From NCBI RefSeq assembly GCF_000473165.1, contig NZ_KI421504.1:1146501-1210500 (forward strand): a stretch of DNA of 64,000 nucleotides, in the 5' to 3' direction. Positions 1,450-6,086 of the stretch are shown piece by piece (within the stretch, counting starts at the first letter, position 1; each line of letters begins with the position of its first letter). A program made the position numbers and the translations under genes. The stretch is from Leisingera aquimarina DSM 24565 (GTDB lineage: Bacteria > Pseudomonadota > Alphaproteobacteria > Rhodobacterales > Rhodobacteraceae). The notes below the pieces were generated by a model. The model worked only from the letters and a program-made list of their open reading frames with translations. It made no database searches and had not been told where the DNA came from.

Positions 1450-2063
1450 AACTTGACGTGATCAAACTCGACGGCGGCAAGTCCGGCGACATCGAGCTGT
1501 CCGAAGACCTGTTCGGCCTGGAGCCGCGTGCGGACATCCTGCACCGTGTGGTCCGCTGGCAGCGCAACAACGCGCAGGCCGGCACCCACAAGGTGAAGAC
1601 CCGCTCGGAGACCTCCTATTCGACCAAGAAGATCTATCGCCAGAAGGGCACCGGCGGCGCACGCCACGGTGACCGCAACGCGCCGATCTTCCGCAAGGGC
1701 GGTATCTACAAAGGCCCGGTTGTCCGTTCGCACGGCCACGATCTGACCAAGAAGTTCCGCAAGCTGGGTCTGCGCCACGCGCTGTCCGCAAAGGCAAAAG
1801 CGGGCGAGCTGGTCATCATCGAGGATGCAGCCTCCGAAGGCAAAACCGCCGCTCTGGCCAAACAGGTGAAAAACCTGGGCTGGAAACGCGCGCTGGTCAT
1901 CGACGGCTCTTCGGTCAACGAAGACTTCCTGAAAGCGTCGCGCAACATTGAAGGCCTGGATATCCTGCCGACAATGGGCGCAAACGTCTATGATATCCTG
2001 AAGCGTGACACCCTGGTGATCACCAAAGCGGGTATCGAAGCACTGGAGGCTCGCCTGAAATGA
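1446..2063 (+). CDS. rplD: 50S ribosomal protein L4
   Basis: This 205-residue protein is L4, which lines the peptide exit tunnel. The extended loop is visible in the segment with [13 protein letters not shown] followed by APIFRKGG. Its ATG overlaps the rplC stop and its own stop overlaps rplW (ATGA-type junctions), implying translational coupling through the block. In E. coli L4 represses its own operon at the S10 leader; no matching leader was recognised upstream here. Confidence 0.97.
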
Positions 2064-2356
2064 GCGCTAAAGCTGAACACTACGATGTGGTCCGCAAGCC
2101 GATCATCACCGAGAAAACCACCATGGCGTCCGAAAACGGCGCGGTAGTTTTCGAAGTGGCAATCGACTCGAACAAGCCGATGATCAAAGAAGCTGTTGAG
2201 GCTCTCTTTGGCGTCAAGGTGAAGGCGGTCAACACCACCATCACCAAAGGCAAGGTCAAGCGGTTCCGCGGCCAGATGGGCCGTCGCAAAGACGTCAAAA
2301 AAGCCTATGTGACCCTGGAAGAAGGCAACACAATCGACGTGTCCACCGGACTCTGA
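2060..2356 (+). CDS. rplW: 50S ribosomal protein L23
   Basis: This 98-residue L23 starts [20 protein letters not shown]; the KPIITEK segment is the family hallmark. L23 sits at the tunnel exit and is the docking point for trigger factor and the signal recognition particle. It is coupled to rplD by a four-base overlap. In most bacteria rplB follows directly, but here a terminator and a 2.9 kb insert separate them. Confidence 0.97.
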
Positions 2357-2379
2357 GATCTGCCTCTTTGAGACTTTGG

Positions 2380-2409
2380 AAGGCCCTCGCTAAAAGCGGG
2401 GGCCTTTTT
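2380..2409 (+). terminator. Rho-independent terminator after rplW
   Basis: An 11-bp stem (AAGGCCCTCGC against GCGGGGGCCTT, one G-T wobble) with a TAAAA loop is followed by a T run. It ends transcription of block 1 in the middle of what is normally one continuous S10 operon. Confidence 0.85.
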
Positions 2410-2607
2410 CATATGCGCAGGGCGGGCATGTCTGCATGGCGGGTCCCTTGGTGAAGTCCATCCGCTGATTAATAGCCGCTGGCGGTTAAGATCCGCGAAG
2501 CCCTGCGTGCGCTGCCTGCGCAACGGGCGGCGTTCAAAAACGGCGCCCCGGCCCTATCATTCCTGGCGCTATAGCGTATGGGAGGGGGGCCTTAAGGAGA
2601 ATGAACG

Positions 2608-3120
2608 ATGGGACCTTCACAGAGTTTACCTGAACTGGTCGCGGCGGCGCGGGCCAATGCCAAGACGCTTGAGGATCGCATCACGGCGGCGCAAACCCCT
2701 GACGGCGGGCCGGCGGGATCTGCGGGCCAAGTTGAGGAGCTTCGCGCGGCCACGGTTGCGCTGGAAGCGCAAGCGGTCGATATCTTCACCCTGTTCGAGG
2801 CGCGGATGCAGCACCACTTCAGGCGCGGGCCGTTCTCGCGGAAATTGACATCCCTGCTGTCGCAGTCCGGGCAAACCGGCCTCGCCGAAAGGGTCCATCA
2901 GTATTATCTGGTGATCAACGTTTTGAAGCACGGCAAGGGTGCGAGCTACCGGGAATTGCTGAATGCTCCGGGGTCCAAATTTGCCGTGAACACCAGCCGG
3001 GACACTGCCGCCGATGATGCACAGCAATCAGTTGGGCTGGTAGACATCAGTTTCCCCGGCTTCTTTGCCGGGCTGACCGAAACCATTCTGGAAGCCAGTC
3101 GGTTCCTCGAAAAGCAATAG
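2608..3120 (+). CDS. Conserved-looking hypothetical protein, 170 aa
   Basis: No family is recognised with confidence. The start is supported by AAGGAG about ten bases before ATG 2608. The protein is soluble, with no signal or membrane segment. The N-terminal third (to about residue 55) is Ala/Glu-rich and probably helical. The middle part (LAERVHQYYLVINVLKHGKG) looks helical in the style of HEPN-like bundles, but the R-x(4-6)-H ribonuclease motif is absent, so that link is weak. GC content and codon use match the core genes, unlike the next cassette. It stands alone between the rplW terminator and a convergent gene. Confidence 0.75.
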   Translation: MGPSQSLPELVAAARANAKTLEDRITAAQTPDGGPAGSAGQVEELRAATVALEAQAVDIFTLFEARMQHHFRRGPFSRKLTSLLSQSGQTGLAERVHQYYLVINVLKHGKGASYRELLNAPGSKFAVNTSRDTAADDAQQSVGLVDISFPGFFAGLTETILEASRFLEKQ

Positions 3121-3338
3121 GGCGCATCCCGCCGCGCCAGCGTCATGCTGAAAGCTTGGCTAAGGTAGGACCCGGCCCCATGAGGCGCTGAACGGGCGTC
3201 TTGTCCCCGGCGCGGAATCAAGGCCGCAGGCCGCCGCGCCAGCGCCGTCCCGCCCCCATTGGGCGGCGCTTTGGCTGGTGTTCAGCGTGTCTGTGGGGTC
3301 TTGGGGATTTGGCCGGGATAAAGTGGCCTACGCGACGT

Positions 3339-3370
3339 TGACAGCGCCACCCCGCGGGACGGCGCTGTCA
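3339..3370. repeat. Perfect inverted repeat downstream of the small membrane protein gene
   Basis: TGACAGCGCC (3339-3348) and GGCGCTGTCA (3361-3370) are perfect complements around a second small palindrome, CCCGCGGG (3351-3358). It lies just beyond the minus-strand stop at 3384, so it could be that transcript's terminator, although there is no T tract. It could equally be an end of the inserted cassette. Confidence 0.6.
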
Positions 3371-3379
3371 CGGCTCTGA
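3345..3379 (+). repeat. Imperfect direct repeat, left copy flanking the AIPR cassette
   Basis: From CGCCAC at 3345 to TGA at 3379 this stretch resembles 4952-4982 in the same orientation. Shared blocks are CGCCAC, GCGGGA, GGCGCTG, CACGGCT and TGA, with a few gaps and two substitutions. The pair brackets the minus-strand cassette 3384-4747. Confidence 0.5.
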
Positions 3380-3383
3380 CTTG

Positions 3384-3512
3384 CTATGCTACGGAAGCGT
3401 ATGCGACAACGCAGAAGACAGCGAAAACAATAAGAATAGCAAGGCGGCCTGTGGCGTTGGCTTCAAAGTTCTGTCCGACTTTGATCAGCAGCTTTTCCTT
3501 CTCTCCAGGCAT
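3384..3512 (-). CDS. Small single-span membrane protein (42 aa) coupled to the AIPR-like gene
   Basis: ATG 3512-3510 overlaps the TAA of the upstream minus-strand gene in a TAATG arrangement, and the frame ends at TAG 3386-3384. The 42-residue product has a charged amphipathic start (MPGEKEKLLIKVGQNFEANA) and then one hydrophobic helix, LAILIVFAVFCVVAYASVA, running to the C-terminus. This is the pattern of a small tail-anchored or pore-like membrane peptide. Its tight junction with the AIPR-like gene implies co-translation and a joint function. A role as membrane effector in phage defence is inference only. It is too short for standard ORF calling. Confidence 0.6.
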   Translation of the reverse strand: MPGEKEKLLIKVGQNFEANATGRLAILIVFAVFCVVAYASVA

Positions 3513-4747
3513 TACTCAGTCCCCGCGGTAAGGCGTTCGATTTGTTCCCGGAGGTAGAAGTTTTCGACGGTCTTATAGAGACCTGCCCAGTGGTTTCGGT
3601 TTTTGCCTAGAACGTTGGGTGCGGGCCCAATTTCCTTGACCGTTGCATGGGTTTCATTGAAGAGGTCATGTGCAACCTGTTTCCAAACATGCTTTACATG
3701 ATCGAATCCGCCTTCCCACTCTGCGAAGCCTGTTGTCGGGTCTATTCGAACATAGTTCCGGAAGGCTCCCAAAAGCGGATAGGTGGCACCTTTTGTCAGC
3801 CTCTTATCGTGGCGATCGAGTTTTGCGAAGGGGAATTCAAAGCTACCTGCCTTCTTTGAGGCCACCTCAATGTATGCAGGGGTAGCTCCCTTTTGGCCGA
3901 TGATCTCGGAACGAACTCTTAGGAAGTCTCTGCGGATGATGTCATAAAGTTCGAGGATTTGGGGGAGCAGCGGTTCAAGTTTAGCGTATTTCCGTTGCTC
4001 CGGATGGGCGCGGTTTTCCTTGAAGTCCTCTCCGAACCTCTTTAATGGCAAAGACCATTTTTCGTAGGCTGAGATTGGGTACTTTCCGCTGCGATTGGGG
4101 TAGTCGATTACATTCATGATCTCTAGGGCCGAGATCAATTCCCTAACATCGACAGCATTGGTATCGCTTTCCTTGTAGGAAACATCGTTGGCCCAATCCT
4201 GGGGCGCAATAACGTCTTTTATCCCTTGAAACGCCCCGTCTAGATCGAAAATGGATTGGGGCTTCACAGCAATTCCAGTGTTCTGCCCCCGAGCAATGTC
4301 CACTCGTAGAGTATGATCGTTGGCGCCTTCTACTCCGGTAATGATGCGAATTTCAACGTGCTGGCCTTCCGCTATTGAGTCGTCATCTTGACATTCCCAA
4401 ATGAGGTTGGCGGTGTGTCCGCCATTTGCAATGCCGTACTCATCGTCGATCATGACGTCAAAGGTGCGTTTCTCTACAGTCTTGACCTCTTCCCCGATGA
4501 TGGTGATGCCGAGGTTGAGTAGGTCGAATGTACCCGGTAAAGCCTCGTTACCTCTAAGGCTCTCTCTAACATCCTTATAGACAGAGCGGTTCATACCGGT
4601 TGCTTCACGCAGGTTTGCTTTCTGAGGCAAGTTCTTCGGAAGGTTTGCTGCAGGGACTAGGAATATGTGCTTTTGGATGTTCGGAAAGTGAGGGTGTCTG
4701 AAGCTACGCGCTTCCGAAACCTCAAAACGATAAGGTTTAATAGCCAT
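3512..4747 (-). CDS. AIPR-like (abortive infection phage resistance type) protein
   Basis: This 411-residue soluble protein carries the ordered motifs typical of the AIPR family: VRESLRGNE (about 60-68), FDLLNLGITII (74-84) and YGIANGGHT (104-112), which match the family pattern of R-G...NNGITI...VNGxQT. AIPR proteins are found in abortive-infection and restriction-linked phage defence loci; the biochemical activity is not established. The rest (about 190-411) has no domain I recognise. The start is backed by AAAAAGGAG nine bases upstream. Codon use and GC (near 50%) are lower than in the flanking ribosomal genes, and orientation is opposite, so recent transfer is likely. It overlaps a 42-aa membrane protein gene. 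A DGQHR/DndB-like relationship is an alternative reading. Confidence 0.65.
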   Translation of the reverse strand: MAIKPYRFEVSEARSFRHPHFPNIQKHIFLVPAANLPKNLPQKANLREATGMNRSVYKDVRESLRGNEALPGTFDLLNLGITIIGEEVKTVEKRTFDVMIDDEYGIANGGHTANLIWECQDDDSIAEGQHVEIRIITGVEGANDHTLRVDIARGQNTGIAVKPQSIFDLDGAFQGIKDVIAPQDWANDVSYKESDTNAVDVRELISALEIMNVIDYPNRSGKYPISAYEKWSLPLKRFGEDFKENRAHPEQRKYAKLEPLLPQILELYDIIRRDFLRVRSEIIGQKGATPAYIEVASKKAGSFEFPFAKLDRHDKRLTKGATYPLLGAFRNYVRIDPTTGFAEWEGGFDHVKHVWKQVAHDLFNETHATVKEIGPAPNVLGKNRNHWAGLYKTVENFYLREQIERLTAGTE

Positions 4748-4951
4748 ATAAAGGCTCCTTTTTCAGTGCCGACGGCGCGGCCTAAGACCTGCAGGCACGA
4801 TGGCCTTTCACAGGGAACACGGTGGTTCATTCTTTGGGTAGCACACTTATGGTGCGTGCACAATTAATGGGGTATGTCCGTTTCTATTTTGTTCCAAGAT
4901 GCCCGCTGGGACGGCAACGTCAAGTGGGTCTGTTGACGAACTGGCGCACAC

Positions 4952-4982
4952 CGCCACGCGGGAGGCGCTGCCACGGCTTTGA
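4952..4982 (+). repeat. Imperfect direct repeat, right copy flanking the AIPR cassette
   Basis: This is the partner of 3345-3379: CGCCAC, GCGGGA, GGCGCTG, CACGGCT and TGA occur in the same order with small gaps. The upstream GTTGAC is also shared (3336 and 4932). It may mark the edge of the inserted segment, or simply be a dispersed intergenic repeat. Confidence 0.5.
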
Positions 4983-5057
4983 GGCATAGCTCACGATCCC
5001 TGCAAGGAACCTATAGACTCCCCCAAACACCTCTGCTAAGCCGCACCAATCCTGCAG

Positions 5058-5078
5058 ACCCCGGATTCGTTCCGGGGT
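5058..5078 (+). terminator. Hairpin before the rplB promoter
   Basis: ACCCCGGA and TCCGGGGT form an 8-bp perfect stem with loop TTCGT, followed by a moderately T-rich stretch. It may insulate rplB from upstream transcription. The region 4748-5057 otherwise holds only the right-hand repeat and the minus-strand leader of the AIPR-like gene. Confidence 0.45.
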
Positions 5079-5098
5079 TGTTACGTTTGTCAGGATGT

Positions 5099-5129
5099 TT
5101 GAACTTTGGGACCTTCGGGGCCCTATATC
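5099..5129 (+). promoter_or_regulatory. Putative promoter of the rplB block
   Basis: TTGAAC (5099-5104) is followed, 19 bases on, by TATATC (5124-5129; CTATAT with 18-base spacing also fits). A fresh promoter is needed because block 1 ends in a terminator and the intervening cassette runs the other way. Confidence 0.4.
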
Positions 5130-5243
5130 TCAGGCAACCCTAGTAGGGCGTCTCATCGTGGGACAACCGGGCGGGGGGCTTACACATAGCGGGTCCAAAG
5201 ACAAAAACCTAAGGGCCTGCACGCTAAACGGAAGACAGAAAGC

Positions 5244-6086
5244 ATGGCACTCAAGTCGTATAAGCCGACGACGCCGGGCCAGCGTGGGCTGGTTCTGATC
5301 GACCGTTCGGAGCTTTGGAAAGGGCGTCCGGTCAAATCTCTCACTGAGGGTCTGACCAAATCGGGCGGCCGGAACAACACCGGACGGATTACTGCACGCC
5401 GCCGCGGCGGCGGGGCAAAGCGCCTCTACCGGATCGTTGACTTCAAACGGAACAAATTTGATGTAGCGGCCACCGTTGAGCGGATCGAATACGACCCGAA
5501 CCGGACCGCATTCATCGCGCTGATCAAATACGAAGATGGCGAGCAAGCCTACATCCTGGCGCCGCAGCGTCTGGCTGTCGGTGACAAGGTCGTCGCCTCT
5601 GCCAAGGCAGACATCAAGCCGGGCAACGCAATGCCGTTCTCGGGCATGCCGATCGGTACCATCGTTCACAACATCGAAATGAAGCCCGGCAAAGGCGGCC
5701 AGATCGCCCGTGCAGCCGGTACTTACGCTCAGTTCGTTGGCCGTGACGGCGGTTACGCCCAGATCCGCCTGTCCTCGGGCGAGCTGCGTCTGGTGCGTCA
5801 GGAATGCATGGCCACCATCGGTGCCGTGTCGAACCCCGACAACTCGAACCAGAACTTCGGTAAAGCCGGCCGTATGCGCCACAAGGGCAAGCGTCCTTCT
5901 GTGCGTGGTGTGGTTATGAACCCGATCGACCACCCCCACGGCGGTGGTGAAGGCCGGACCTCCGGTGGCCGCCACCCGGTGACCCCCTGGGGCAAACCGA
6001 CCAAGGGCAAACGGACCCGCAACAAAAACAAGGCGTCGCAGAAGCTTATCGTCCGCTCGCGCCACGCCAAGAAGAAAGGCCGCTAA
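5244..6086 (+). CDS. rplB: 50S ribosomal protein L2
   Basis: This 280-residue L2 starts [21 protein letters not shown]2 is needed for subunit association and peptidyl-transferase activity. The conserved C-terminal segment [14 protein letters not shown] includes the histidine linked to peptidyl-transferase function. Its tail is basic ([10 protein letters not shown]). It is the first gene of block 2, three bases before rpsS, with a leader of about 115 bases from the proposed promoter. Confidence 0.97.

Follow-up and report, generated by a model that had tools for sequence, protein, structure and literature searches.

The 64,000-nucleotide stretch of Leisingera aquimarina DSM 24565 analysed here (the window; the genome that carries it measures 5.34 Mb) contains, between the ribosomal protein genes rplW and rplB, a gene of the AIPR family encoding a protein of 411 amino acids (aa). 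This gene is followed by a short gene for a 42-aa protein with a single predicted transmembrane (TM) segment and preceded by an 81-nucleotide (nt) leader of tandem hairpins (Table 1). We describe these elements, their relatives and the junction in which they lie, and consider what the three may do together.

Table 1. Features of the rplW-rplB junction (window coordinates; ORF, open reading frame)
Feature	Position	Strand	Basis or remark
rplW (L23), last gene before the gap	2060-2356	+	ORF; matched in 21/21 genomes of the genus
Terminator-like hairpin after rplW, left slot edge	2382-2409	+	Stem GGCCCTCGCT/AGCGGGGGCC, then TTTTT
170-aa ORF, other slot resident	2608-3120	+	No Pfam, NCBIfam or PADLOC family at E ≤ 10
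GC-rich imperfect repeat, left cassette edge	3346-3379		By eye; resembles 4953-4982
42-aa single-TM protein gene, AIPR partner	3384-3512	-	ATG overlaps the AIPR stop (TAATG)
AIPR-family gene, 411 aa	3512-4747	-	ORF and PF10592; compact form
AIPR protein, predicted N-terminal ParB/Srx-like fold and helical C-terminal half			Structure model
Leader hairpin 3	4768-4781	-	GCCG-CGCCGT-CGGC
Leader hairpin 2	4793-4806	-	AGGC-CATCGT-GCCT, with 5-bp lower stem
Leader hairpin 1	4815-4828	-	GAAC-CACCGT-GTTC
Candidate promoter, TTGTGC-17-TACCCA	4835-4863	-	By eye; just upstream of hairpin 1
GC-rich imperfect repeat, right cassette edge	4953-4982		By eye; resembles 3346-3379
L2-Alphaproteobacteria ribosomal leader (RF03142) of rplB, right slot edge	5107-5241	+	44.7 bits vs gathering score 37.8
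rplB (L2), first gene of the downstream unit	5244-6086	+	ORF

A compact AIPR protein and its membrane partner

A first-pass annotation, made from the letters alone, had called a minus-strand, low-GC AIPR gene at this position, and a profile search bears this out. The protein matched PF10592 clearly (62.1 bits, cutoff 25; E = 9.4e-17), the Pfam domain spanning residues 44-361; no other Pfam domain was found in it. The AIPR gene (GC content 49.9%) and the 42-aa gene (49.6%) are poorer in GC than rplW (54.2%), rplB (61.8%) and the window as a whole (61.6%). The Pfam domain, and the presence of relatives beside restriction-modification genes, are shared with AbiU1; passages in PMC2292703 and PMC3506569 place the AIPR family with such genes. 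In contrast, the PADLOC AbiU match of the window protein is confined to model positions 247-369 of 537, indicating that the N-terminal part of the model, called HEPN for AIPR in a passage of PMC3506569, is missing here. No HEPN family appeared among the Pfam matches at E ≤ 10, a profile search that a diverged HEPN domain could escape. (In PMC3710099, a passage counts AbiU2 among the HEPN proteins; AIPR goes unmentioned there.) The 42-aa TM partner and the tandem-hairpin leader further distinguish the window locus from AbiU1. Profile searches revealed no other toxin domain in either protein.

Compact AIPR proteins of Gram-positive plasmids (L142-L146; 389-408 aa) align with the window protein over its full length at 25-28% identity and share its invariant motifs. 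They differ in their surroundings: a divergent helix-turn-helix regulator gene lies upstream in five of five, and none has a similar TM partner, the one weakly hydrophobic ORF (in L145) being unlike the 42-aa protein.

A structure model built from five close sequences alone reached a predicted local distance difference test (pLDDT) score of 36.6. With three distant relatives from viral contigs added, the values were pLDDT 72 and predicted template-modelling (pTM) score 0.56. VIA-align rows 1-9 for this model all belonged to the ParB/sulfiredoxin (Srx) superfamily (ParB, Noc, PadC, SspE in row 7, and Srx), while a PDB sequence search with a 10-row AIPR profile gave no match. The motifs N-x-R, (N/D)GGHT and A-xxx-N resemble the QR, DGQHR and FxxxN motifs of the DndB/DGQHR and GmrS/DUF262/SspE proteins, as described in part of PMC4619093, and PMC3506569, in the passage concerned, places the N-terminal domain of DndB in the AIPR family. 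Residues G109 and H111-T112 are invariant across 10 and 8 sequences, and the model has a strand (E106-108) followed by a helix (H110-121) around GGHT. Note that GGHT stands here in place of DGQHR, the Arg of the DGQHR/GxxR-type motif being absent, and that no Dnd or Ssp genes were seen beside AIPR. The protein probably has a nucleotide-binding domain of the ParB/sulfiredoxin type, like DndB, SspE and GmrS, ahead of a helical domain. Support for the predicted ParB fold is moderate, and the protein may bind nucleoside triphosphates (NTPs).

The 42-aa protein contains one hydrophobic segment (Kyte-Doolittle 17-residue maximum 2.76) and has no Pfam family; its relatives share the stretch LLI(K/R)(I/V)G..FEANATGRLAI. 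The AIPR and 42-aa pair was found in five other genomes, at L138-L141 and in G806 (locus L187). The nearest named AIPR relatives are from Marivita, Thiosulfatihalobacter and a Rhodobacteraceae metagenome-assembled genome (75% identity), followed by Corticibacterium (64%) and G806 (62%); Marivita and Thiosulfatihalobacter we take to be Rhodobacteraceae as well. In all six intact loci with an AIPR at least 62% identical (the window, L138-L141 and L187), a 42-aa homologue lies directly downstream, with 56-78% identity in four relatives and 39-48% in G806. Stop and start codons overlap in the window, L138, L139, L140 and L141 (5/6), and a short gap separates the genes in G806. G147 carries a decayed copy of both.

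Between the window and L138-L141, the proportion of synonymous differences (pS) was saturated for the AIPR gene (0.79-0.85) as well as for the 42-aa gene (0.76-0.86), whereas the proportion of nonsynonymous differences (pN) was low (0.16-0.25 and 0.16-0.32, respectively). Both genes are therefore more than chance ORFs, and this substitution pattern indicates that they are under purifying selection in the four relatives compared. The pairing with a tiny membrane protein, also part of the first-pass annotation, holds at every intact close locus.

Searched against 181 genomes of the class, the 42-aa protein found its own copy as the sole convincing match; the next best (E = 0.001) lay in a 428-aa frame and was chance-like. 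Against plasmids, its only match, in two Methylocystis records (35%, E = 0.5), was judged to be due to chance, and the L140 version gave no match there. The partner was also missing at nine more distant AIPR loci, L152 (49-50% identity), L189 (36%), L153, L159 and L142-L146 (25-28%). Its presence beside close AIPR copies but not distant ones suggests that the 42-aa protein belongs to one AIPR subfamily. No report of the module or its leader was found in the open-licence PMC literature, an absence that carries little weight. The family is a known one, in a new arrangement.

Presence of both genes in nearly all relatives, as a core housekeeping pair, would have spoken against the first-pass annotation, but the AIPR gene is rare: counting the own genome each time, it was found in one of 21 genus genomes, in 2 of 394 of the family (here and below, the group assigned to the same family by the search tool), one of them a remnant, and, with an alignment as query, in 3 of 196 of the order. 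A class-wide search with the 10-row alignment returned 4 of 385 genomes, the own genome and three weaker ones including G642. In viral contigs, neither the window AIPR nor two Gram-positive AIPRs found a match; the 10-row alignment found two loci there.

AIPR has a tyrosine integrase gene as a neighbour, at a distance of no more than 4 kb, in L138, L139, L141, L152 and G806 (locus L190). Further neighbours are phage capsid/protease genes in L139, a terminase gene in L152 and the type I restriction genes HsdR/HsdS in L138. The L140 pair lies among core-like genes, with no integrase in the listed ORFs. The association with restriction-modification or mobile elements is thus a property of the relatives (L138, L139, L141, L152, L147 and G806) and not of the window locus. 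Such neighbours make a role in defence plausible.

Two further observations concern these neighbourhoods. On a gut contig filed as phage (L147, 95-4150), genes for an N6/N4 methylase, Mrr, a DpnII endonuclease and a TIR protein precede an AIPR gene whose frame is split in two ORFs. In L139, a 312-aa protein without Pfam family is encoded divergently from the AIPR pair (4842-5780), and L138 has a short ORF (5491-5781) that looks alike by eye; the two are perhaps shared remains of one mobile element.

A leader of tandem hairpins

The hairpins of the leader have 4-bp stems and 6-nt loops and extend almost to the ribosome-binding site, the third ending ~20 nt before the AIPR start codon. DNA homology upstream of AIPR stops at position 4829, the hairpin edge, in three of four comparisons. 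Across ten pairwise comparisons of five copies, leader identity was 79-96%, compared to 44-61% for the adjoining 90 nt in nine of the ten; the sister pair L138/L139 gave 96% for the leader and 82% for the next 90 nt. The candidate promoter has a counterpart with comparable -35 element and spacing in L138 and L139, but must be regarded as weak because the scanner did not find it.

In the window, L138, L139 and L140, 17 of 17 tested base pairs are able to form (wobble counted). Three were changed on both sides, A-U/G-C twice and C-G/G-C once. Note that L138 and L139 are near-identical, leaving about three independent sequences, and that the pairs were tabulated from a hand alignment that excludes L141 (one intact hairpin and one with a mismatch) and L187. 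The latter, the leader of G806, has two hairpins, GGGC-CATCGT-GCCC and GGTC-CATCGT-GACC. Overall, the stems vary yet mostly stay paired and the loops keep close to CATCGT, which would fit an RNA hairpin read at its loop better than a DNA operator. The leader may serve autoregulation.

Several findings weigh against this view of the leader. Its folding energies were no better than those of shuffled sequences, and the minimum-energy folds contained all three hairpins for the window, L139 and L140, whereas those of L138 and L141 did not. Moreover, the leader is known from only a handful of sequences. No Rfam family matched it at E ≤ 1. A pattern for hairpin 3, which is unable to detect the G806 leader, matched 4 of 374 family genomes, the own genome and three in surroundings that are not leader-like (five matches for the reversed control), and a longer leader pattern found nothing in viral contigs.

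An apparently permissive junction between rplW and rplB

The first-pass annotation had described the cassette as inserted into a normally unbroken S10 operon, and this part does not stand. The terminator-like hairpin behind rplW lies in a region (2360-2425) with a minimum free energy of -32.8 kcal/mol, although a consensus terminator scanner did not list it. PMC7247131, in the part concerned, assigns the L2-Alphaproteobacteria leader to rplB-rpsS-rplV-rpsC, and we found this leader in 19 of 20 family gap loci (20 of the 51 loci fetched were scanned), in 15 of 16 genus loci and in L189. With a terminator behind rplW and an own L2 leader before rplB, the two genes look like the ends of two transcription units.

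The spacing of the genes is likewise variable. Among the matches listed, 152 genomes had both genes, colinear in 129, inverted on one contig in 4 and on different contigs in 19, the last not being distinguishable from assembly breaks. The 129 colinear gaps ranged from 24 to 5766 bp (median 611), with at least 600 bp in 66 and at least 1000 bp in 51. Without 11 extra members of the over-sampled genus, the counts were 55 and 41 of 118, with a median of 480 bp. Of the 20 other genomes of the genus, 11 were colinear with gaps of 957-2470 bp, 8 had no rplW in at least 8.9 kb upstream of rplB, and one could not be judged. In a separate observation, the junction (2357-5243) is a rearrangement breakpoint in G018, G029, G063 and G065 (four genera), where the two genes lie on opposite strands, 10 kb to 2.9 Mb apart.

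Among the 11 colinear genus members, homology continuous with rplW extends to 2410-2526 in nine and to 3315-3375 in the two closest; on the rplB side it starts at 5009-5032. The closest AIPR-free site, in G017, lacks 3376-5030 and has 141 other bases instead.

What occupies the gap was surveyed in 63 loci, comprising the window, family gaps of at least 700 bp and the 11 genus gaps. The cargo differs between most of them. The 170-aa ORF is the cargo traced in most loci (five): its homologues occupy the slot in two further members of the genus and in two genomes from other genera, and it is perhaps older cargo than the AIPR pair, given its presence in three genera. Mechanical selection of ORFs of at least 90 aa from the 63 loci yielded 118, some of which are not genes; 85 (75 plus ten) were scanned against Pfam and PADLOC, the other 33 being mostly short or doubtful. 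The 75, which include both window ORFs, matched 54 Pfam families, and the 25 of these that were listed are mostly metabolic or domains of unknown function (DUF), with single matches to ParE, SocA/Panacea and a kinase. Of the 42 PADLOC models matched, 25 were listed, 22 of them PD-T4-6 with one protein each; these matches very likely reflect the protein kinase also seen by Pfam. In G018, in which rplW is apart from rplB, a gene for an SLFN_AlbA_2 protein follows rplW.

Within the genus, 8 of 11 gaps carry one or two genes of low GC content (46-51%). Only one of ten proteins so encoded, a ClpP-like SDH protease in G009, had a Pfam family above cutoff. Eight of the ten had no Pfam match even at E ≤ 0.1, and for one PADLOC gave a weak match (PD-T7-3, 17 bits). 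No Pfam match was obtained for two further low-GC proteins of the genus. The low-GC genes without Pfam family above cutoff in the slots of L055, L057, L058, L062, L065, L069 and L070 are a possible source of accessory functions.

A second AIPR gene occupies the junction in G859, a member of another genus. It is 36% identical to that of the window, has a GC content of 47% and lies directly before the L2 leader on the strand of rplB, opposite to the orientation of the window gene. Altogether, six intact Rhodobacteraceae copies were located (G000, G859, G806, L138, L139 and L141), two of them in the rplW-rplB slot. Differing cargo and a second AIPR in the slot argue for a recurrent docking site, as the first-pass annotation had suspected; different genes do occupy the slot from genome to genome. 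However, the expectation that these would be defence genes was not borne out, since metabolic and DUF families predominate among the matched families listed. The slot has the look of a permissive site, not of one reserved for defence. Varied cargo at a fixed site recalls the defence hotspots of P2/P4 satellites (AIPR is named in a figure legend on P4 cargo in PMC9122126), from which the present site differs in its position between two ribosomal-protein transcription units and in the mixed nature of its cargo.

The repeats at the cassette edges were noticed by eye. A repeat search did not report this pair and found no long flanking repeat; it returned an inverted pair at 3233-3253/3354-3374. 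The GC-rich block 3119-3377 contains inverted repeats, and parts of it recur in the slots of several genus members and weakly elsewhere in the genome. There are six other matches, all partial, to block 3120-3385 in the own genome (best E = 2e-10). In the absence of a long flanking repeat, and with only partial matches elsewhere, we set aside repeat-driven insertion and claim no integration mechanism.

Possible functions of the module

The interpretation we favour, tentatively, is that leader, AIPR gene and membrane-peptide gene form a horizontally acquired module in a permissive spacer that probably acts against phage. The AIPR and 42-aa proteins would probably be co-translated, with the latter placed in the inner membrane and its conserved stretch at or just before the membrane. 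AIPR would sense an infection-related change, in the nucleotide pool or in phage DNA, and would switch the membrane peptide, or be tethered by it, halting the cell in an abortive infection. The tandem-hairpin leader would keep the dose low, perhaps through AIPR binding its own mRNA. A bolder form of this proposal, in which a ParB/Srx-like AIPR, the 42-aa peptide and a self-regulatory CAUCGU-loop leader form one circuit of a new class of defence module, and the rplW-rplB junction is a true hotspot that captured AIPR twice, strikes us as unlikely.

Alternatively, the pair may be a toxin-antitoxin system, with the 42-aa peptide as membrane toxin and AIPR as antitoxin and autorepressor, mainly stabilising mobile elements, any anti-phage effect being secondary or absent. 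The overlap of stop and start codons between two small linked genes, the mobile contexts of the relatives and a leader that looks autoregulatory would all fit such a system. However, the nine distant AIPR loci without the peptide suggest that AIPR has a role of its own, and neither AIPR nor the peptide (searched against Pfam only) matched a family of this kind. We consider this explanation rather unlikely.

That AIPR itself is the effector, a putative nucleotide-degrading or nicking ParB/Srx enzyme for which the peptide is a mere membrane anchor, also seems rather unlikely. ParB/Srx relatives in conflict systems have been proposed, in passages of PMC10853773 and PMC12839542, to be nucleases or NTPases, and the ParB-like motifs are conserved in AIPR. 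On the other hand, its GGHT motif lacks the terminal Arg of DGQHR/DGQQR.

The varied slot contents, the rarity of the pair and the decayed copy in G147 would also be expected of neutral cargo, a passenger pair without present role that the slot tolerates. Yet comparison of divergent copies, a test of the group and not of the window copy by itself, shows both genes to be under purifying selection and the leader to be constrained, and makes this quite improbable.

In type III toxin-antitoxin systems, tandem RNA repeats are followed by a terminator and then by a ToxN-type toxin. That the leader hairpins are such an antitoxin RNA for AIPR is very improbable: four loci do have three tandem RNA-like units immediately before the gene, L187 has two and L141 has one intact and one mismatched, but these units reach close to the ribosome-binding site with no terminator between them and the gene, and the protein matches the AIPR profile and no type III toxin family.

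In conclusion, AIPR proteins have been noted in restriction-modification and phage-satellite loci, in the passages of the literature cited above, and the compact form with peptide and leader described here offers a small, testable system. The junction itself indicates that even a ribosomal core cluster can accommodate a swap site, given a terminator and an independent leader that divide it. A comparison of the rplW-rplB gap between genomes may be a cheap way of finding unknown accessory genes.
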